From Owenia fusiformis (Eukaryota; Annelida; Polychaeta; Sabellida; Oweniidae): 64,000 nucleotides of DNA. The DNA is taken from NCBI GenBank assembly GCA_903813345.2, contig CAIIXF020000008.1, forward strand, positions 34,248,867-34,312,866, given 5' to 3'. Position 1 is the stretch's first letter. The number at the start of each line of letters is the position of its first letter. Positions 14,243 to 42,837 of the stretch are shown one piece after another. Both the position numbers and the translations under genes were made by a program. The notes under the pieces are model-generated. The model was not told the origin of the DNA, made no database searches, and was given only the letters and a program-made list of their open reading frames with translations.

Positions 14243-14839
14243 CCGATGTGAGAGTGATTACAAATTGATTGTTCTTCAAATCTAAGCTGGTTTGAACAGT
14301 TATAAATAACAAATTGAGAGCATATCAAAAAGTGTCCCATCTATAGTGGGCAACCCTGTATTCATGTTTATTTGGCTTAAAACAAACATTTCATAATTGA
14401 ACAACTTACAAATTAGAGACAATGTGATGCCAATATTTGTTTTACAGATGAAAACAGTAAAACTCTAGATAAGATTAATGGCAATATTTCACAATGAAAT
14501 TGTTTTTATGAGGAAACGTTTTTTAAAATCAAAGAACTACCAAGACACCTATCACCTTGAGACAAATTGTGATAATTGTTTGGTAAGAGTCCTTCAAATT
14601 CTAAAGTTAAAACAAACATAAAAAACTTCAACATTCAGAGTGCAATGGTCAATGCCTTTGATGTTTTGTTTTCTTTACTTTCTTACATTTTCATCTTATA
14701 TGTGTATTCAAAATCCCTGTATTTAAAAAACTCCCTTTAATAGATGACTCACCACCTACTTGATTGACACTTGTACATGGTTCAAGTTGTTTTTATTAAT
14801 GTTTGTATCATAAATCTAAACTGTCAGTGTGTTTTGTTA

Positions 14840-15640
14840 CTTTTAGGTCATGGATGTGACTATGGACCAATATTGGAGTGCTATAGGCAACTTCCAACCA
14901 TATGGCCCCATCGACTCCATTACTGCAAAAGCTGAGGCCTTGAGGAATAATCCTCAATTACCAAACCATAACTGGTCCTTTAAACATAAGTGCATTTTTT
15001 ACTGTTAGGTCATGGGTGTGACAATAGACCAATATTGGAGTGCTATAGGCAACTTCCACCCACAAGGGCCCATCAACTCCAGTACTGTATAAGCTGAGGC
15101 CTTGACGAAAAATCCTCTATTGCCAAACCATAACTGGTCCTTTAAACATAAGTGCATTTTATTACTGTTAGGTCATTGGTTTGACAATAGACCAATGATG
15201 AAGCACTATAAGCAACTTCCACCCACATGGCCCCACCAACTCTTACGTAATAGCTTAGGGCTTAAGAAGCAATCCCCAATTGCCCTACCATACCTGGTCC
15301 TTTAAACATAAGTGCATTTTGTTACTTTTTGGTCATGGATGTGACAAAATCAAGGAGAGCTAGGGGCAACTTCCACCCACATAGCCCCGTGAACTCCAGT
15401 TATGAAATAGCAGAGGCCCTTAGAAACAATCCCCAATTGCCATACCATACCTGGTCCTTTAAACATGAGTGTATTTTGCTACTTTTAGGTCATGGGTGTG
15501 ACAATAGACCAATGGCGGAGTGCTATAGGCAACTTCAACCCACATGGCCCCACCTCCAGTTATGTAATAGCTGAGGCCCTGAGGAACAATCCCCAATTGC
15601 CATACCATACCTAGTCCTTTAAACATAGTGTATTTTGTTA
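14840..15640 (+). repeat. Tandem decayed copies of the 2A-gene first exon (about 160-bp unit)
   Basis: Five partial units precede the functional exon. Each starts with a TTACTTTTAGGTCATGG-like acceptor and start (ATG or its remnant near 14850, 15012, 15174, 15329, 15492). Each continues with the same coding-like stretch (SAIGNF.P.GP.NSS....AEALR.NPQL) and then diverges into an intron-like TGGTCCTTTAAACATAAGTG segment instead of the hydrophobic 2A part. Some have in-frame stops. The unit is thus intron end plus exon start, and only the sixth copy (15648-15828) carries the 2A motif and the donor. Confidence 0.85.
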
Positions 15641-15647
15641 CTTTTAG

Positions 15648-18600
15648 GTCATGGGTGTGACAATAGACCAATGGCGGAGTGCTATAGGCAACTTCCACCC
15701 ACAGGGCCCTTCCAATTCCAGTTATGTAATAGCTGAGGCCTTAAGGGGCAATCCTCAATTGTTGCTAGTGATCACCTTCCTTTTGCTGATAGGGGGAGTT
15801 GAATCCAACCCAGGTCCTGAGACACAAGGTAAAGTTATGGATAAAAGTTTTTAAATACATAAAGATATATACTAAAACGTTATACGTGGTTTATATTACT
15901 TAGTGATAAAATAACAGATGAGAAAATTAAATTTTGCTGTGATTTTATCAAATCTTGAAGCACTTAGAATCGAATGGCAGTAGAAAATCAACTTGGTATG
16001 AACTGGCAATTCCGTTTAATTTTGTTATTTCATGTTTATGTTCTGCAGAGACTACTGCTGATGCAATGCATCTGCTTGGCCAGAGAATAACAGCATGTGA
16101 TCAGAAGACAGAGCTCAAAAAGCAAGCTGGGTACATGTATAAATTGGGATTAGCTTATGCCAAACTGGCATGTGAGACATCAGATCATTGGCAGTTCATC
16201 TATGCAACAGCACTCCTCAATGCAGCACTACAACGCATTGAGAAAAAGCCAAAGGCTGTTGGAGGCATCCTAGGTAAGTGTTTACCTCTAAGTGTTAGAG
16301 GCAAACATATACTAACTGTACAATCTATAACTGACCAGTTGCAACGAATAGAGACCGACTTTCTTAAAACAGTATCTAAAGTCAACAATGAATCAACTGC
16401 AGACTGTACAGAAAGGTACAAGAATCATCTGGATCAAGTAAGGACATATTCTACTGATACCATAAATAAGATTCATAAGAATGACATGCAAGTAGATAGT
16501 GTTACATCTGAAATGAGTGATGAATGTGAAGACAGGCTAATAGTGAACAGCAAAGAGTTCTATAAGAACCTTACAGGTCAGATAAAAGAGTTTCATGGGG
16601 TAATATTTGATGAATGTGTGAAAGTACTAGGTGCTCCAATGTGTAGGTTTGTGTTTCTAGGGTTAGGTTCACTGGCTAGAAAGGAGGTGACTGCATGGTC
16701 TGATCTTGAGTCAGCAATCATTTATGATCCAAATGGCAAATCACCTTCGGAAATTGGTGAGATCAAACAGTATTTCAGGGTCCTTATGCATTATTTTCAC
16801 ATGAAAATCATCAATTTGGGTGAAACTCGTTTAAATGTTCTTGATATACCTGTCCTCAGTGATTTCAATTCACAACTTGATCAAGGTTTTGAGGACAATA
16901 ATTTTTCTGACATGGTAACAAAACAGGGTCTCTGTTTTGATGGTACCCTTCCTAAAGCAAGCAAGACACCATTTGGAAGAAAGTCCACCACTGTTGCAAA
17001 TGTAAAGTCTGACAAGCTAGAGCTTATTATGACATCTAAAGAAATGGCTAATTGTCAGTTAACAGCTATTTCAATTAAAGAAGGGTATCACCTTAGTGAT
17101 GTGCTTCTTACATCTACTTTTATTAAAGGAGACAAATTTCTATGGGAAATGTATAATATGAAGGTTCATAACACTATTGAATTGCAGTCATCATCAAATC
17201 TAAGTATCTCGATAGGTCAAGAACGTGGATATGCTACATTAAAGGATGACTTAAAAAATTATGACAGCAATCCTTTAACACCCGAGTCATTGCAAAAACA
17301 AATGCGCACAAAACACACAATTTACAGATTTGCCACAATATCTATCAACATTCTCAAACTGATATATCACTGTAAGTCAGTTAGCCCCCTTGATATCTTA
17401 GAGGAGTTGGAACAGAAACAGGTTCTGACTGAGAGAGCCAAGAAAGATTTACAAGTGATGGTTTGTCTAGCCACTAATATTAGGCATCTTGTATACAGCA
17501 GATATGACCAGCAAGAAGAGATTGTATCCTTCCTGGCTCCAAATCCTAGTCATTTGACTTCAGTTAACCCAGATGTAGTATCTGTGAGGGATTTCAATGC
17601 AATATACAGGTTCTATGCTACATTATTCCCCTGGTCTGAATTTCTAAAAACACACTCCACAGATCTAGCAAAATGCACACATCTAGCTAGATATATTGAT
17701 AACAGTGATACTACAAAGGGCCAGCTCCATGAAGAAATGCTATTCACTGATAATGCACTCAAAGCCTATATACGTGAAGAAGAGAGGCTCATATTACTAG
17801 AAGGGAAAGAAAACCAAATAAAATGCAGCAATGTGAAACAAAGCATAGGCAAGCTTTATGAATCTCAGGGAAAGTACAATCTGTCAATGAAATACCATGA
17901 ACAAAGCCTCACAATGTACAAACAGATATTTGGAGATAAGCCACATCATGGTATAGCACAATCACTTTATGGTATTGGTAAAGCGTATAAAGGAAGAGGT
18001 GATTATACCAATGCAATCAAATACTATAAGCAAGGTCTGAATATGATGAACCACATATATGAAAATCAACCACATTTAATAATAGCAAACATATTAAGTA
18101 GCATTGGAGATGTATATTTCAGGACAGCCAATTATAACACGGCAATACAATACCATAAGCAAAGTCTAGAAATGTACAAAAAGTTACTTGGGGACAAAGC
18201 ACACTCTGGAGAAGCAAATACAATCAGGAACATTGGAATTGCATACTGGAGTAAAGGTCACCATGACCAGGCTATTCAATACTACAATCAGAGTCTGGAA
18301 ATGTACAGAAAGACATATGGAGACAAGTCACATCCTGACATAGCAAATACACTAAACAACATTGATGTTGCATACAATGATAAAGGTGACCATGACAAGG
18401 CTATTCAATGCTACAATCAGAATCTGGACATGTACAGAGAGACATATGGAGACCAGTCACATCCTAGCATAGCAGTGACACTAAACAACATTGGTATTGC
18501 ATACAATGATAAAGGTGACCATGACATGGCTATTCAATACTATAAACAGAGTCTAGACATGTATAGAGAGACATATGGAGACAAGTCACATCCTAGCATA

Positions 18601-19500
18601 GCAAGGACACTAAACAACATTGGCTGTGCACACTGGAGTAAATACAGAGATAAAGGTGAACATGACAAGGCTTTTCAACACTACAATCAGAGTCTGGACA
18701 TGTACAGAGAGATATATGGGGACAAGTCAAATCCAGACATAGCAAGGACACTAAACAACATTGGTATTGCATACAGTGATACAGGTAAACATGACAAGGC
18801 TATTCAACTCTACAATCAGAGTCTGGACATGTACAGAGAGATATATGGGGACAAGTCAAATCAAGACATAGCAAGGACACTAAACAACATTGGTATTGCA
18901 TACAGTGATAAAGGTGAACATGACAAGGCTATTCAATATTACAATAAGAGTCTGGACATGTACAGAGAGACATATGGAGACCAGTCACATCCTGACATAG
19001 CAAGGACACTAAACAACATTGGTATTGCATACAGTGATACAGGTAGAGATGACAAGGCTATTCAATTCTACAATCAGAGTCTGAACATGTACAGAGAGAT
19101 ATATGGAGACAAGTCACATCCTAGAATAGCAAGGACACTAAACAACATTGGCTGTGCACACTGGAGTAAAGGTGAAGATGACCAGGCTATTCAATACTAC
19201 AATCAGAGTCTGTACATGTACAGAGAAGCATATGGAGACCAATCACACACTGATATAGCAAAGACACAACACAACATTGGTAATGCATACTCAAGGATTG
19301 GTGAACATGACAAGGCTATTCAATACTACAATCAGAGTCTGGACATGTACAGAGAGATATATGGAGACAAGTCACATCCTAGAATAGCAAGGACACTAAA
19401 CAGCATTGCCATTGCACACTGGAGTAAAGGTGAGAGGACTAAGGCAAGTGAATACTATAAACAGAGTAGAGACATGAAGAAACAATTAAACAAAAACTAG
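15648..19500 (+). CDS. 2A-peptide / nucleotidyltransferase-like / TPR protein, gene A
   Basis: Two exons, 15648-15828 (ATG at 15651, right after an ACTTTTAG acceptor) and 16049-19500, join in frame (CAA-G|AG-ACT) to give 1209 residues. Residues 1-56 are a short leader with a hydrophobic stretch (about 37-47) ending GVESNPGP. This is a 2A-like ribosome-skipping motif, predicted to release a 55-residue peptide and start the main protein at Pro56. Residues about 230-460 hold a GlnD/DUF294-type nucleotidyltransferase signature: GS at about 266-267, then SDLES with Asp278 and Glu280 as likely metal ligands, followed by helices like the DUF294 C-terminal region. From about 652 to the end are 13 kinesin-light-chain-like TPRs of 42 residues (AIQYYNQSLDMYRETYGDKS type). 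The substrate and partner are unknown. The family's 2A leaders resemble those described on invertebrate NLR-type proteins, so an immune or sensing role is only an inference. Confidence 0.88.
15759..15818 (+). other. 2A-like translational recoding motif, gene A
   Basis: The codons give a hydrophobic LLLVITFLLLI run followed by GGVESNPGP. The consensus is D-V/I-E-x-N-P-G-P. Here the first residue is Gly rather than Asp, while Glu, Asn, Pro, Gly and Pro are all present. The break would fall between Gly55 (15813-15815) and Pro56 (15816-15818). The same motif sits at the same place in gene B. Confidence 0.8.
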
Positions 19501-20460: not shown

Positions 20461-21660
20461 ACAATCAGAGTCTGGACATGTACAGAGAGACATAAGGAGA
20501 CAAGTCACATCCTGATATAGCAATGACACTTAACAACATTGGTTATGCATGCGGGGGTAAAGGTGACCATGACCAGGCTATTCAATACTACAATCAGAGT
20601 CTGGACATGTACAGAGAGACATATGGAGACAAGTCACATCCTGATATAGCAATGACACTTAACAACATTGGTTATGCATGCGGGGGTAAAGGTGAACATG
20701 ACAAGGCTATTCAATACTACAATCAGAGTCTGGACATGTACAGAGAGACATATGGAGACAAGTCACATTCTGACATAGCAATGACACTAAACAACATTGG
20801 AATTGCATACTGGAGTAAAGGTGAACATGACCAGGCTATTCAATACTACAATCAGAGTCTGGACATGTACAGAGAGACATATGGAGACAAGTCACATCCT
20901 GATATAGCAATGACACTTAACAACATTGGTTATGCATGCGGGGGTAAAGGTGAACATGACAAGGCTATTCAATACTACAATCAGAGTCTGGACATGTACA
21001 GAGAGACATATGGAGACAAGTCACATCCTGATATAGCAATGACACTTAACAACATTGGTTATGCATGCGGGGGTAAAGGTGAACATGACAAGGCTATTCA
21101 ATACTACAATCAGAGTCTGGACATGTACAGAGAGACATATGGAGACAAGTCACATCCTGATATAGCAATGACATTTAACAACATTGGTTATGCATGCGGG
21201 GGTAAAGGTGAACATGACAAGGCTATTCAATACTACAATCAGAGTCTGGACATGTACGGAGAGACATATGGAGACAAGTCACATCCTGACATAGCAAGTA
21301 CACTTAACAACATTGGTACTGCATTCAATGATAAAGGTGACCATGACCAGGCTATTCAACACTACAATCAGAGTCTGAACATGTACAGAAAGACATATGG
21401 AGACAAGGCACATTCTGACATAGCAATGACACTAAACAACATTGGAATTGCATACTGGAGTAAAGGTGAACATGACCAGGCTATTCAATACTACAATCAG
21501 AGTCTGGACATGTACAGAGAGACATATGGAGACAAGTCACATTCTGATTTAGCAATGACACTTAACAACATTTGTATTGCATACTCTGGTCTAATAGGAA
21601 AGGTGAGATGAATAAGGCAAGTGAATACTATAAACAGAGTAGAGACATGTAGAAACGATT
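20461..21660 (+). pseudogene. Headless TPR array, third NTase-TPR copy
   Basis: About nine TPR units of 126 bp, nearly identical to each other (GEHDKAIQYYNQSLDMYRET and TLNNIGYACGGK recur), make an open frame from 20523 to 21611. It begins inside a unit without a 2A exon or nucleotidyltransferase region. The first unit has a TAA (20493-20495) in place of the Tyr codon of YGDKS. The end is shifted by one base near 21590, so the normal KASEYYKQSRDMKKQ end is out of frame and followed by TAG. It is a tandem duplicate of the 3' half of gene A. The units are more alike than those of genes A or B, which suggests recent unit expansion. Confidence 0.8.
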
Positions 21661-24122: not shown

Positions 24123-24340
24123 GGTCACATTTGCTCCAGTTCATTGGCCAGCGCCCGGCTGATTGAGTATTTTGTTCAAAATTAAGGGGAAATCTCAAAT
24201 TTGAGATCAGATGTGAACTCCTGAGAACTTGTACATGATTTAAAAAAATGTTTGGTCAATTTGAAGCAAGTTAAAATCAGTTTTGAACAAAATACCGCAA
24301 TCGGCCGGGCGCTGGCGGATGAATCTGAGCAAATGTGACC
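24123..24340. mobile_element. MITE with GGTCACATTTGCTC ends, inside the UGT fragment
   Basis: GGTCACATTTGCTC (24123-24136) and GAGCAAATGTGACC (24327-24340) are exact complements. The inner arms also pair (GGCCAGCGCCCGGC.TGATTG against CAATCGGCCGGGCGCTGGC). A partial copy, broken by a mariner insertion, is at 57587-57693. Confidence 0.85.
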
Positions 24341-24782
24341 AACAAATAATATTGGAAAAAGTTGAGCTCCCGTGTAGGAATTGACCTCAAGTGATCCGCA
24401 CCGTTGTGCTTCATGACGTATTCAGCCCAGTATTTGATAGTTTGTGAAGCACTCATTGGTTGATCTCTGGCCAATGCCTGGGCTTTTAGAACATTCTGTT
24501 TATACACTGGACTCTCAGGAAGGTCATCTAAAGCATCTGAAAGTAGTTCCATATTCACTTCATCAAAGATGACAAGTCGCCCCATTTTGTGACGATGGGT
24601 GAGGATCCCGCAATGCTGACATTTGTCATAAAACAAAGGGATGCCAATGACAGGGACTCCATTATACACTGTTTCTGCAGATCCAGATGCTCCACAATAA
24701 GTCATAAACACTCGTAGGTTACCTTGACTTAGACAGGCACTAACGCAGGGAAGAGTTGCTTCAAGGCCAAAGGCTAACAATT
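24341..24782 (-). pseudogene. UDP-glucuronosyltransferase-like C-terminal fragment
   Basis: Minus-strand exon with an AATCAG acceptor at 24783-24785. The translation matches the UGT donor-binding region: FMTYCGASGSAETVYNGVPV, IGIPLF, then a YDKCQHC stretch and a WAEYVMKHNGADHLR..FFQYYLL end leading to the usual membrane anchor. UGTs transfer sugar acids to lipophilic compounds at the ER membrane. Two signature positions are unusual: Tyr for the usual His in HCG/HGG, and Lys for Gln in the DQ pair that contacts the sugar. The frame runs into the MITE at 24340 just where the membrane segment should start and ends 21 codons later at 24277. No UGT N-terminal exon is visible upstream to 28 kb, so it is probably a broken remnant. 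Confidence 0.7.
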
Positions 24783-26167
24783 CTGATTTGGCAGGTCAAC
24801 ATTAAGCCTGTCCATGAACACAAGTAACTATAGTAACCAAACTCAAACAAGCAATATCAAAATTGTGTTTTTTTATTTTAAAAACTTTCCGCAGATATAG
24901 ATCTGTGTACAATTCTTTATAATTACATGTAAACACAAACAACTTCCCTTCATTTTAGTAAATTATAAGACTACCCCAGTATGTATACTTTTTTTACATA
25001 ACATAAAAAGCAGTACATAATACTATGAAATAAATGTACATTGTGTACATAATGTACATGTATATAGTAATATATATATAATGCATATATACTAATGTAT
25101 AATGCTACACACCATATTTTAAATTAATAAGATCAAAATCATATAATAATATTTAATCGAGCACTTGGATTTGATTATTTTAATTTACATTTATTTTATT
25201 TTTTTGGGACGGTGATACTTTAGTTTTCTGTTAATGTCAAATAATGTCACTGACCATAGTTAATTCAATAATAACTGTGAAGATTAAACACTGAAAATAT
25301 TGAGAGGTAATCCAATACCAAAGGTCACTGAAAATATTAAGATGAATATCATAGTTAACACAATTCATCTACTTCAGAAAAGGCTTTTAAACAGATACAT
25401 GTACCTTGTCTTGTCTCTGTAACAATTTATTTCAAGAATTGTCTACAGTTAAAATACAGGAGACAAGCTGAAGTATGTTACATTTGTGATGAAGCACTCT
25501 TTTTCATTGTTCATATTTTTTCCCATATAATGGTATTTTCAACAGCAAAAAAACATTGGTGTCTCATATGCCTAATAAACTTTAAGTCCTATTCTACACT
25601 ATTTCACTCTGAAACTCAAATTATTGTATCTTTTTTGTAGCTGACTGCATGGTTGTCCTATAATCATTGCTGATTCAATATTTTTCCAAAAGCCTTTAAA
25701 TTGCAATTTATAACACTACAATCATCCCAATGAACCGTGAACAGTACAGGTGTATTTTGGTTTCCTCGAAGAATTTGTCAATATCCTAATATCTTACATG
25801 ATAAGGAGGGTGTAGCATTATGAAAACGTGAGATTAAAACATTGTTCCTTTCAAGATCTTAAACAGTATAGCCCTGAGGAGATGCTACCCCATAATCCTC
25901 TGTTCCATGTCACATGATATTCAACTGGTAGTGTTGCATGCTGGTACCATTTTTCTGCCATCCCTGCTCCTGAAATGTACAATACATCACATTTAAAATT
26001 TTTTAAAGGTATTTCAACAGGCAGTTTCCATAAACTGAAGACCCCATGATACTGTGTTCTACTTTTACAATTTCAAATCAGAGTATCATAGGGGCTTACA
26101 CACAGAATAATGACATATGTCTATAATGTCATATGCAATGATCTCTCCTAATGAACTCGCAATCTGA
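24783..26167. other. No supported gene; AT-rich
   Basis: AT-rich sequence with palindromic TGTACAT/ATATAT runs near 25030-25090. A stretch at 25858-25966 (minus) has an acceptor and an open frame containing MAEKWYQHATLPVEYHVTW, but nothing else supports it as an exon. Confidence 0.5.
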
Positions 26168-39250: not shown

Positions 39251-42200
39251 GTCATGGGTGTGACGATAGATCAATGGCGGAGTGCTATAGGCAACTTCCA
39301 CCCACATGGCCCTTCCAATTCCAGTTATGAAATAGCTGAGGCCCTGAGGAACGATCCTCAATTGTTATTAGTAATCACCTTCCTCTTGCTGATAGGGGGA
39401 GTTGAATCTAATCCAGGACCTACGACCTCAGATAGTGAGACACCAGGTGAGGTTATGGTAAAGAGATAAAAATACTCAAAGGTATAAATGGTGTACATAA
39501 TTACTCACTGTTGAAGTAATAGATGAAATAATTTTCCTGTGATAAACTAATTTTTTGAATATCTAATATCTGATCTTGAAAGACTAAGAATGGCAGAAAA
39601 CAGAAGAGGAGCAGAAAATAATCTTGGTATGAACTGGCAATTGCATTTAATTTTGTTATTTCATGTTTATGTTCTGCAGAGACTACTGCTGATGCAATGT
39701 ATCTGCTGGGTCAGAAAATAACTGCATGTGATCAGAAGACAGAGCTCAGAAAGCAAGCTGGGTACATGTATGAATTGGGATTAGCTTATGCCAAACAGGC
39801 ATGTGAGACATCCGATCATTGGCAGTTCATCTATGCAACAGCACTCTTCAATGCAGCACTACAACGCATTGAGAAAAAGTCAAGGACTGTTGGAGATCAT
39901 GATGATGAAATAATTGTTAAAGGTAAACTTATAACTGTAAAATCTATAACTGACCAGTTACAACAAGTAGAGACTGACTTTCTTAAAACTGTATCTAAAG
40001 TTAACAATGAGTCAACTGCAGACTGTGCAGAAAGGTACAGGAATCATCTGGATCAAGTAAGGACATATTCTACTGATACCATGAATAAGATTCATAAGAA
40101 TGACATGCAAGTAGATAGTGTTACATCTGAAATGAGTAATGAATGTGAAGACAGGCTAATAGTAAACAGCAAGGAGTACTATGATAACCTTACAAGTCAG
40201 ATAAAAGAGTTTCATGGGTTAGTATTTGATGAATGTGTGAAAATACTAGGTGCTCCAATGTGTAGGTTTGTGTTTCTAGGGTTAGGTTCACTGGCTAGAA
40301 AGGAGGTGACTGCATGGTCTGATCTTGAGTCGGCAATCATTTATGACCCAAATGACAAATCACCTTCAGAAATCGAAGAGATCAAACAGTATTTCAGGGT
40401 TCTTGTGCATTATTTTCACATGAAAATCATCAATTTGGGTGAAACTCGTTTAAATGTGCTAGATATCCCTGTGCTCTGTGATTTTAATTCAAAACTCAGC
40501 CAAAATTTTACAGACAATGATTTCCATGACACCTTCACGAAACAAGGACTTGCCTTTGATGGCACTCTACCTAAAGCAAGTCAGACACCTCTTGGCAGAA
40601 AGTCCACCACTCTTCCAAATGTAAAATCTGATGAACTGGAGCTTATTATGACACTTGAAGAAATGGCAAATTATCAGTTAACAGATATTTCAATTAAAGA
40701 AGGGTATCACCTCAGTGATGTGCTCCTTACATCTACCATTATTAAAGGAGACAAATCCCTATGGGAAATGTATAATAAGAGGGTTCATGACAAAATTGCA
40801 TTATCCAATCAAACTAGCACAATAGGTCAAGAACGTGGATATGTTACATTAAAGGATGACTTAAAAAAGTTTGACAGTAATCCTTTAACACCTGAGTCAT
40901 TTCAAAAACAAATGCGCACAAAACACACAATCTACAGATTTGCCACAATATCTATCAACATTCTCCAACTGATATATCATTGTAAGTCATTTAGCCCCCT
41001 TGATATCTTAGAGGAGTTGGAACAGAAACAGGTTCTGACTAAGAGAGCCAAGAAAGATTTACAAGTGATGGTTTGCCTAGCCACAAATATTAGGCATCTT
41101 GTATACAGCAGATATGACCAACAAGAAGAGATTGTATCCTTCCTGGCTCCAAATCCCAGTCAGGGAACAGTTAATTCAGAACTAGTATCTGTGAGGGATT
41201 TCAATGCAATATACAGGTTCTATGCTACATTATTCCCCTGGTCTGAATTTCTAAAAACTCACTCCACAGATCTAGCAAAATGTAAACATCTGGCTAGATA
41301 TATTGATAACAGTGATACTGTAAAGGGACAACTCCATGAAGAAATGCTATTCACTGACAATGCGCTCAAAGCCTATATACATGAAGAAGAGAGGCTCCTT
41401 TTACTTGATGGGAAAGAAAACAAAATTAAATGCAGCAATATAAAACAAAACATAGGCAACCTTTATGAATCGCAGGGAAAGTATGGTCTGTCAATGAAAT
41501 ACCATGAACAAAGCCTCACAATGTACAAACAGATATTTGGAGATAAACCACATCATGGAATAGCACAATCACTTTATGGTATTGGTAAAGTGCATAAAAG
41601 AAGAGGTGATTATACCAATGCAATCAAATACTATAAGCAAGGTCTGAATATGATGAACCATGTATATGAAAATCAACCACATTTAATAATAGCTAACATA
41701 TTAAGTAGCATTGGAGATATATATTTCAGGACAGCCAATTATAACATGGCAATACAATACCACAAGCAAAGTCTATACATGTACAAAATGTTACTTGGAG
41801 ACAAAGCACACTCTGGAGTAGCAAATACAATCAGGAACATTGGTATTGCATACATTGGTAAAGGTGAACATGACAAGGCTATTCAATACTATAATCAGAG
41901 TCTGGACATGTACAGAAAGACATATGGAGACCAGTCCCATCCTAGAATAGCAGATACACTAAACAACATTGGAATTGCATACTGGAGTAAAGGTGACCTT
42001 GACAAGGCTACTCAACACTACAATCAGAGTCTTGACATGTACAGAGAGACATATGGAGACAAGGCACATCCAGACATAGCAATGACACTAAACAACATTG
42101 GAATTGCATACTGGAGTAAAGGTGACCATGACCAGGCTATTCAACACTACAATCAGAGTCTGAACATGTACAGAGAGATATTTGGAGACAAGCCACATCC

Positions 42201-42837
42201 TGATATAGCAATGACACTAAACAACATTGGAATTGCATACTGGAGTAAAGGTGACCATGACCAGGCTATTCAACACTACAATCAGAGTCTGAACATGTAC
42301 AGAGAGATATTTGGAGACAAGCCACATCCTGATATAGCAATGACACTAAACAACATTGGTAATGCATACAGTGATCAAGGTGACCTTGACAAGGCTATTC
42401 AACACTACAATCAGAGTCTTGACATGTACAGAGAGACATATGGAGACAAGTCACATCCTAGAATAGCAGATACACTAAACAACATTGGAATTACATACAG
42501 GGGTAAAGGTGACCATGACCAGGCTATTCAACGCTACAATCAAAGTCTGAAGATGTACAGAGAGATATATGGAGACCAGTCACGTCCTAACAACATAGCA
42601 ACAACACTAAACAACATTGGTGTTGCATACAAAGATAAAGGTGACCATGACCAGGCTATTCAATACTACAATCAGAGTCTGAAGATGTACAGAGAGATAT
42701 ATGGAGACCAGTCACATCCTAGCATAGCAACAATACTAAACAACATTGGTAATGCATACTCTAGGAAAGGTGAGAGTTCTAAGGCAAGTGAATACTATAA
42801 ACAGAGTAGAGACATGAAGAAACAATTAAACAACTAG
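39251..42837 (+). CDS. 2A-peptide / nucleotidyltransferase-like / TPR protein, gene B
   Basis: Paralogue of gene A with the same structure: exon 39251-39446 (ATG 39254 directly after TTACTTTTAG) and exon 39680-42837, joined CCA-G|AG-ACT for 1116 residues. The leader is nearly the same as in A (IDQWRSAIGNFHPHGP, then hydrophobic residues and GVESNPGP at 39398-39421). The linker after the 2A site differs (TTSDSETPE against ETQE). The nucleotidyltransferase signature FLGLGSLARKEVTAWSDLES is identical. There are 11 TPRs against 13 in A, with a different mix of units (FGDKPHPDIAM occurs twice in a row). Only one first-exon copy is present. The stop codon is at the edge of an inserted element (42838-43597). 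Cellular role is unknown; enzymatic activity is inferred from the motif only. Confidence 0.88.
39362..39421 (+). other. 2A-like translational recoding motif, gene B
   Basis: LLLVITFLLLI followed by GGVESNPGP, with the predicted skip between Gly55 and Pro56 (39416-39421). It is identical at the protein level to gene A across the hydrophobic part and the motif, although the codons differ at several third positions. Confidence 0.8.

Follow-up and report, generated by a model that had tools for sequence, protein, structure and literature searches.

What kind of gene is built when a translational skip signal is placed in front of an enzyme-like domain and a long repeat array, and what might its products do? 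The question arises from a stretch of 64,000 nucleotides of the annelid Owenia fusiformis (hereafter the window; assembly GCA_903813345.2, contig CAIIXF020000008.1, positions 34,248,867 to 34,312,866 of the forward strand), which carries a gene, here called gene A, composed of a leader exon ending in a 2A (StopGo) core, a nucleotidyltransferase (NTase) domain and an array of tetratricopeptide repeats (TPRs). On balance, we lean towards the idea that gene A and its relatives are StopGo-led two-product genes with an AMPylase-like NTase and a diversified TPR sensor tail. An initial annotation of this DNA had spoken of an unusual design, a view that the analyses reported below support. Papers cited by their PMC numbers are cited throughout from excerpts.

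The anatomy of gene A was read directly in the letters. The leader exon with its hydrophobic run and GVESNPGP, as well as exon 2, lie where the initial annotation had placed them and are in phase with each other, the 15828/16049 junction being a prediction from sequence and not from RNA. The leader starts at ATG 15651, the second codon upstream of which is an in-frame TAG, and the coding part of the exon (15651..15828, plus strand, as for all the features of gene A) translates as MGVTIDQWRSAIGNFHPQGPSNSSYVIAEALRGNPQLLLVITFLLLIGGVESNPGPETQ, that is, a conserved MGVTIDQWRSAIGNF head, a variable linker, a hydrophobic run, the StopGo core and a phase-1 donor; it counts 56 residues to the end of GVESNPGP, followed by the ETQ codons and a split codon up to the donor. 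The core GVESNPG/P (15795..15818) fits the definition (D/G/C/N)(V/I)ExNPGP of 2A/StopGo sequences (PMC12846837), and the upstream context of motif 5 given in the same source, an L-rich stretch ending in (A/G/S)G at p12, is represented by LLLIGG in gene A and by LLVRAG in other leaders (by eye). The skip is predicted to fall between Gly 55 and Pro 56. The donor CAAG/GTAAAG at 15828/15829 and the acceptor TTCTGCAG/AG at 16048/16049 delimit a predicted intron of 220 bp (15829..16048; GT...CAG) and, since both are phase 1, reading continues without interruption as far as the stop codon at 19498-19500; as a caveat, a second donor-like site, GGTAAGT near 16273, lies in frame within exon 2 and was read through here. 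Exon 2 (16049..19500; open reading frame (ORF) reading and Pfam) embeds both the NTase domain (DUF294, PF03445; 28.9 bits with a cut-off of 21, E 1.2e-6) and the TPR array (TPR_12, 6e-119; TPR_10 in 12 stretches), in agreement with the NTase signature and the 13 TPRs noticed at the outset; the approximately 13 units (17830..19480; TPR_12/TPR_10/TPR_NPHP3 matches), the regular ones being 43-residue repeats, are a count of periodic units to which two earlier units were added by eye. The full product is predicted to have 1,209 residues, and skipping would split it into a 55-residue peptide and a 1,154-residue protein whose first residue is Pro.

In the Owenia fusiformis genome, gene A belongs to a large multigene family. 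The description of a single gene, which stands as far as its anatomy is concerned, can be extended to 87 NTase loci or more and to a second leader module. The NTase query gave 91 genome matches at E <= 1e-8, merged into these loci, 65 of them close to gene A (at least 41% identity) and 22 distant, while with the gene A leader as query 52 places were recovered (E <= 0.001), a number that includes the upstream partial copies; all these genome-wide counts are lower bounds. The pattern [DG][VI]ExNPGP was found at 148 sites of the whole genome versus one for the reversed pattern, and the G-type core alone at 53 sites, again versus one for the reversed control. Of the 65 close NTase loci, 41 are preceded on the same strand by a G-type core at no more than 20 kb, as against none of the 22 distant ones; by chance, about 0.07 would be expected for the 65. 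Seen from the other side, 40 of the 53 G-type cores are followed by a close NTase on the same strand at no more than 20 kb, and 45 at no more than 60 kb; a close NTase is found upstream on the same strand for seven of them (clustered genes) and on the opposite strand for none. The eight cores having no close NTase within 60 kb comprise three retrotransposons (L024-L026), one locus with a run of N behind it (L021), one with a TPR frame behind it (L022), a tandem double 2A that accounts for two (L023) and one with an OTU exon 13 kb further downstream (L019).

Two of these loci deserve a separate description. In L023 (G000:C11:27978500-27983000) the tandem double 2A reads ...SGIEKNPGPRVIETDGIEKNPGPRVIETDG..., the 23-base core DNA being repeated 42 bp apart; in L022 (G000:C11:27962500-27966850) a 2A leader (RKVSNVIKLLLIRGGVELNPGP) is situated 5' of a TPR-only frame, with no NTase match nearby.

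The association between leader and enzyme is also visible in the splice phases and in the phylogeny. The best donor after NPGP is phase 1 in all the 43 leaders having a site, out of 45 scored (L003 and L042 had no donor by the scoring rule, and of the two L023 rows, which overlap, one was excluded), although these are not 43 independent cases, because some leader rows are near-copies. On the acceptor side, 14 NTase exons were examined, and in 10 of them one of the two best sites ahead of the exon is of the two-base (phase-1) kind; among the others, L014 is phase 1 by eye, L009 and L016 are ambiguous and L012 was not scored. The distances between leaders and those between NTases are correlated (Mantel test, r 0.84, 0/10,000 permutations; 15 pairs, picked by availability and nearest leader), and in the 50-row NTase tree all 21 leader-labelled rows fall within a single 29-row clade (support 98/96), which also takes in eight close rows for which no leader was found, the 19 distant rows standing apart; for L053 and L058 the label depends on cores 20-46 kb off, and for L055 on a core only.

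The leaders, usually 53-66 residues long (119 at most among the rows read), share two constrained modules: one is the head, with the pattern MGx(S/T)xxQWRxAIGxF, and the other the hydrophobic-2A end. The ratio of nonsynonymous to synonymous differences (pN/pS), computed over 117 non-independent close pairs of 36 leaders, is 0.18 in the first 15 codons, 0.68 in the linker, 0.37 in the hydrophobic run and 0.16 in the core. A check with a query devoid of the 2A recovered 25 leaders, with the exact core in 23 of them, GVHLNPGP in L092 and GIEMDPGP in L014; on the basis of this check and of the pN/pS pattern, we consider head and 2A end as two separately constrained modules. It is known that p14=H, the change found in L092, is an active StopGo variant and that N16A abolishes the activity (PMC12846837); by comparison with N16A, the L014 core (NPGP>DPGP) is probably inactive, D not being among the variants tested in the excerpt of that paper. 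The head was detected in 35 of the 46 leader rows by the script rule and, by eye, also in L052 (EHW for QQW), L017 (whose fetched stretch begins at Met), L019 (seen in L093) and L051 (Leu for Met); it is missing from L022 and both L023 rows, and in L009, L011, L012 and L015 it was outside the fetched stretch or not looked for. The possibility that the MG start is N-myristoylated was dropped: this modification wants a small residue at position 6, and most of the leaders read have none there.

The role of the hydrophobic run bears on a different interpretation of the leader, that is, a dual targeting like that of the 2A leaders of sea urchin NLR proteins, in which the skipped product would be cytosolic and the unskipped fusion would enter the secretory route via the run. 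SpNLR2A6 does show dual targeting (PMC4981915), and the run of gene A, LLLVITFLLLIG, is strongly hydrophobic (KD15 2.53). However, it begins near residue 37 and is not N-terminal, and across the family KD15 is at least 2 in 29 of the 46 leader rows and below 2 in the remaining 17, several of which have K/R in the run. Judged by hydropathy, a signal-led fusion formed whenever skipping fails, as proposed in the initial annotation, is thus unlikely to be the general rule, and we regard dual targeting as a rather unlikely explanation of the leader.

As for the larger product, the region of gene A encoding the candidate enzyme (16066..17530; based on alignment, Pfam, AlphaFold2, Foldseek and VIA-align) is of the GlnE/DrrA adenylyltransferase type. 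The AlphaFold2 model built on 50 paralogs reached a pLDDT of 87.6 and a pTM of 0.89 (an earlier one from 12 sequences, with a pLDDT of 56.7, was set aside) and exhibits an NTase core of the polymerase-beta type with the GlnE/DrrA helical part. Foldseek at E <= 0.001 retrieved four chains, all GlnE or DrrA (E 1.3e-6 to 5.1e-6), and VIA-align gave Z scores of 23.9 for DrrA (296 residues, root-mean-square deviation 3.8), 21.1 for the N-half and 20.8 for the C-half of GlnE; lower scores were obtained with a DrrA N-terminal fragment (11.3) and with the next distinct fold (7.3), a TPR protein aligned over model residues 1-100. The structural alignment with GlnE and DrrA extends to model residue 488, beyond the NTase core and into the helical part. 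PF03445 was found in 50/50 paralogs and SidM_N in 18/50 (E <= 0.01), and a genome-wide profile search gave 53 and 5 matches, respectively, all over cut-off; in a control set of 14 well-known genomes, PF03445 occurs in four and SidM_N in none. The NTase region of gene A alone found no match among the PDB chains with phmmer, DrrA being reached in the PDB sequences only by the profile of the 50-row NTase alignment (E 1.8e-4).

These data modify the suggestion of a GlnD-like transferase, from which the nucleotidyltransferase fold and the DUF294 match over cut-off can be retained, whereas a GlnD-like uridylyltransferase is not favoured, as structure and profiles point to GlnE/DrrA. GlnD, the PII uridylyltransferase, carries HD and ACT domains after its NTase, and neither is present among the matches listed for gene A (25 of 39 Pfam rows). 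When four proteins were scanned with NCBIfam, the GlnD models matched only the distant paralog L089, far below cut-off (best 3.9e-6), and PADLOC gave weak matches only for the same number of proteins (PDC-S09, 0.018 for gene A and 1.7e-5 for L089).

The signature GSxxRxExTxxSDxE, whose G, E, S, D and E are invariant in the 50-row alignment, contains a G-x11-D-x-E motif (16666-16710; G201, D213 and E215 in the numbering of the 488-residue model, with the Asp codon at 16702-16704 and the Glu codon at 16708-16710), to be compared with the Gly-x11-[DE]-x-[DE] motif of GS-ATase and DrrA (PMC8097203). DrrA has Asp249 as a further, third metal ligand. Because of the GlnE/DrrA fold and motif, protein AMPylation is, by analogy, the activity that we favour, and the NTase is most likely an AMPylase of protein hydroxyls (Tyr, Ser or Thr). 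One might suppose instead that the NTase is catalytically dead, a pseudoenzyme scaffold or target mimic with the TPRs doing the work, as the second acid is Glu where DrrA has Asp (PMC8097203); nevertheless, the invariant residues of the signature and the pN/pS of the NTase exon (0.24-0.37 in three pairs of close paralogs) speak against such a loss, which appears to us about as improbable as dual targeting. A second-messenger or small-molecule NTase is less likely still. Animals do use cGAS-like receptors, and the polymerase-beta superfamily includes aminoglycoside NTases (Z 5.5-6.7) and Hailong HalB (Z 4.9), but a Z gap of about 14 separates these from the larger GlnE/DrrA rows, with which the alignment also reaches the helical part.

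The TPR tail is variable, as had been anticipated, and the variation is not evenly distributed. The mean DNA identity between the units of one gene is 81-90% in six family genes. Among 31 distinct 43-residue units of six genes (five exact duplicates of 36 units dropped, the orphan array described below left out), the highest entropies are those of unit positions 10, 13, 3 and 14 out of 43, which correspond, via alignment to the canonical TPR, to TPR positions 9, 12, 2 and 13. Hypervariability has been reported for TPR positions 2, 5, 9, 12, 13, 33 and 34, and ligand contacts for 2, 5, 6, 9, 12 and 13 (PMC1261162). The contact set tested here (2, 5, 9, 12 and 13) has a mean entropy reached by 17 of 100,000 random sets of five; position 5 is a conserved Asn in this family. 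The pN/pS is 1.74 at positions 9, 12, 2 and 13 versus 0.88 elsewhere and, gene by gene, exceeds 1 there in four genes out of five (3.48, 1.31, 4.15, 1.84), these ratios being rough owing to saturation and concerted evolution. The sequence pattern supports the diversification of part of the binding face.

Some family members have, in addition, an OTU (deubiquitinase-like) domain placed between leader and NTase. One OTU exon is over the Pfam cut-off (PF02338, 2.1e-6, L015) and three further pieces are below it. Used as query, the L015 exon gave 26 genome matches: of the 17 at E <= 1.3e-8, 15 are followed within 82 kb by an NTase on the same strand and nine are preceded by a 2A core, while the nine weaker ones have neither (0/9 in both respects).

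On the whole, we think it more likely than not that a single spliced messenger RNA is translated into two products, the first being the leader peptide (about 55 residues) and the second a cytosolic protein (about 1,154 residues). The leader, with its conserved head and StopGo tail, would be released at NPG/P, and the second product, beginning with Pro, would consist of a GlnE/DrrA-fold nucleotidyltransferase followed by a TPR superhelix with diversified ligand-contact positions. The TPRs would probably bind a particular protein or peptide and in this way present or activate the AMP-transferring head; with the TPR face diversified across dozens of paralogs, different targets would be recognized, and an OTU domain is added in some members. 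A defence or stress role might be imagined for such proteins, and the released leader may have a function too.

Leaders of this kind are not the only 2A-bearing sequences of this genome. Nine loci (L024-L032; six D-type and three G-type cores) look by eye like single-ORF non-LTR (long terminal repeat) retrotransposons, with the 2A core just 5' of the endonuclease region and after long hydrophobic N-termini without QWRxAIGxF; RVT_1 was found in all six of the loci scanned, and 2A sequences in non-LTR elements had been described in earlier work cited in PMC4981915. However numerous such elements are, it is very improbable that the leader is a decaying relic of one of them that chances to sit upstream, given the absence of the QWR head from the nine elements read and their different N-termini, the constraint on the leader, its phase-1 donors and its co-inheritance with the NTase, and as a main explanation this was discarded.

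Several observations weigh against the StopGo-led, two-product interpretation. Twenty-four of the 65 close NTase loci have no G-type core within 20 kb upstream and 19 have none within 60 kb; some of these lie on short contigs or have far exons or variant cores, and others may represent a true absence. The L014 leader core, GIEMDPGP, is expected to be dead, and in L051 the conserved first Met of the leader is replaced by Leu. The leader pairs used for pN/pS are not independent of each other, and the heads and many of the cores had been found by motif. The activity of the NTase could be altered, because the second acid is Glu, versus Asp in DrrA and GS-ATase. In the TPRs, L004, one of the five genes tested alone, has no excess at the contact positions (0.84), and positions 5, 33 and 34, hypervariable in the literature excerpted, are outside the top 12 here. 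The gene models are predictions from sequence, and it is only from the family expansion and the TPR variability that an immune role might be surmised.

The window harbors other features related to gene A, all on the plus strand. Gene B has the same NTase-TPR architecture, with a leader exon (39254..39446; donor CAG/GTGAGG, phase 1) sharing 91% identity with the gene A leader (G000:C8:34288120) and an exon 2 at 39680..42837 (DUF294, 6.1e-8). Upstream of gene A, the stretch 14826..15650 consists of tandem partial copies, of about 160 bp each, of the 5' half of its leader, without a 2A; stops occur in two of the four translated copies. Such copies (about 160-163 bp), situated 5' of a full leader and having an acceptor-like TTTTAG followed by GTCATGG, are present at other loci as well: five in L003 (1145-2110) are open over 37 codons, with a pN/pS of 0.29, and one in L014 (1-230) is degenerate. 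They are possibly upstream ORFs, alternative first exons or relics. About 1 kb 3' of gene A lies an orphan TPR array (20496..21611; mean DNA identity of 93% over the eight units compared), in whose reading frame there is neither leader nor NTase; it could be a fragment or a repeat reservoir, possibly feeding gene conversion. On the minus strand, the frame at 24277-24795, recognized by eye and without a search, resembles the C-terminal part of a UDP-glucuronosyltransferase.

A comparison with known systems shows which parts of this organization are shared. As in the sea urchin SpNLR genes (PMC4981915), a 2A core is placed at the N-terminus of a large multigene family, and a released leader plus a cytosolic protein are expected; the SpNLR leaders, however, have 26 residues and precede NACHT/LRR NLR proteins, whereas the family of gene A has its longer leaders, a phase-1 donor directly after the core, a second head module and NTase-TPR, or sometimes OTU-NTase-TPR, downstream. 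With the N-terminal ATase of DrrA/SidM (6yx5, 3nku) it shares the fold, the G-x11-D-x-acid motif and a weak profile match, but it is an animal multigene family with TPRs, has SDxE instead of SDxD and 13% identity, and shows no GEF or P4M among the matches listed for gene A (25 of 39 Pfam rows). With GlnE (1v4a, 3k7d) it has in common an NTase followed by a helical part (Z about 21); unlike GlnE, it possesses a single DUF294 stretch and a TPR tail, without the tandem AT-N/AT-C arrangement. Finally, the combination of TPRs with an AMP-transferring head, as proposed here, recalls the logic of the animal Fic AMPylases (FICD/HYPE; PMC8097203), whose catalytic fold is different.

Relatives were also found in metagenome-assembled genomes titled Rickettsia, Alphaproteobacteria and Parachlamydia (L094-L096, in this order), with identities of 27%, 27% and 23% in the best segments and matches covering up to 371 query residues. 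SDLE is present in L094 and L096, and DG...CKS..GR in L094 and L095; L096 is joined to ankyrin repeats, and L094 has weak TPR matches only. StopGo is reportedly non-functional in E. coli (PMC12846837). These similarities make an exchange between animals and intracellular bacteria possible. In viral contigs, 67 stretches matched the leader pattern and 52 the NTase pattern, none of which was confirmed as a relative.

According to the excerpt of a review on metazoan AMPylation, the AMPylase families are Fic, SelO, GS-ATase and DrrA, the eukaryotic ones being Fic and SelO (PMC8097203); DrrA-like proteins were described in 2015 as very rare and confined to Legionella pneumophila (PMC4454073, in the part cited), and StopGo is considered rare in cellular genes (PMC12846837). 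2A leaders are already known from the sea urchin NLRs, and our findings suggest that their combination with an AMPylase-like NTase-TPR protein is new; such a sensor-enzyme repertoire is not described in the open literature searched or in the sequence libraries used, this genome being the only eukaryotic one covered.

If active, this family, with its dozens of animal genes of the DrrA/GlnE fold, would represent a third type of animal AMPylase and would open the way to direct tests. StopGo is here a constrained and co-inherited part of a large gene family, whose natural variants p14=H and N16D offer a ready test series, and the conserved head makes one wonder whether the 2A "by-product" peptide fulfils a separate function. 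As a tentative and still doubtful extension, the family might constitute a repertoire of intracellular sensor-AMPylases, in which the hypervariable TPRs would recognize foreign or modified proteins, the head would AMPylate the targets so bound, such as small GTPases or pathogen effectors, and the conserved leader, one copy of which would be set free in every round of translation, would act as a partner or signal; this would amount to a protein-AMPylation branch of animal innate immunity, with a fold common to, and possibly exchanged with, the effectors of intracellular bacteria.

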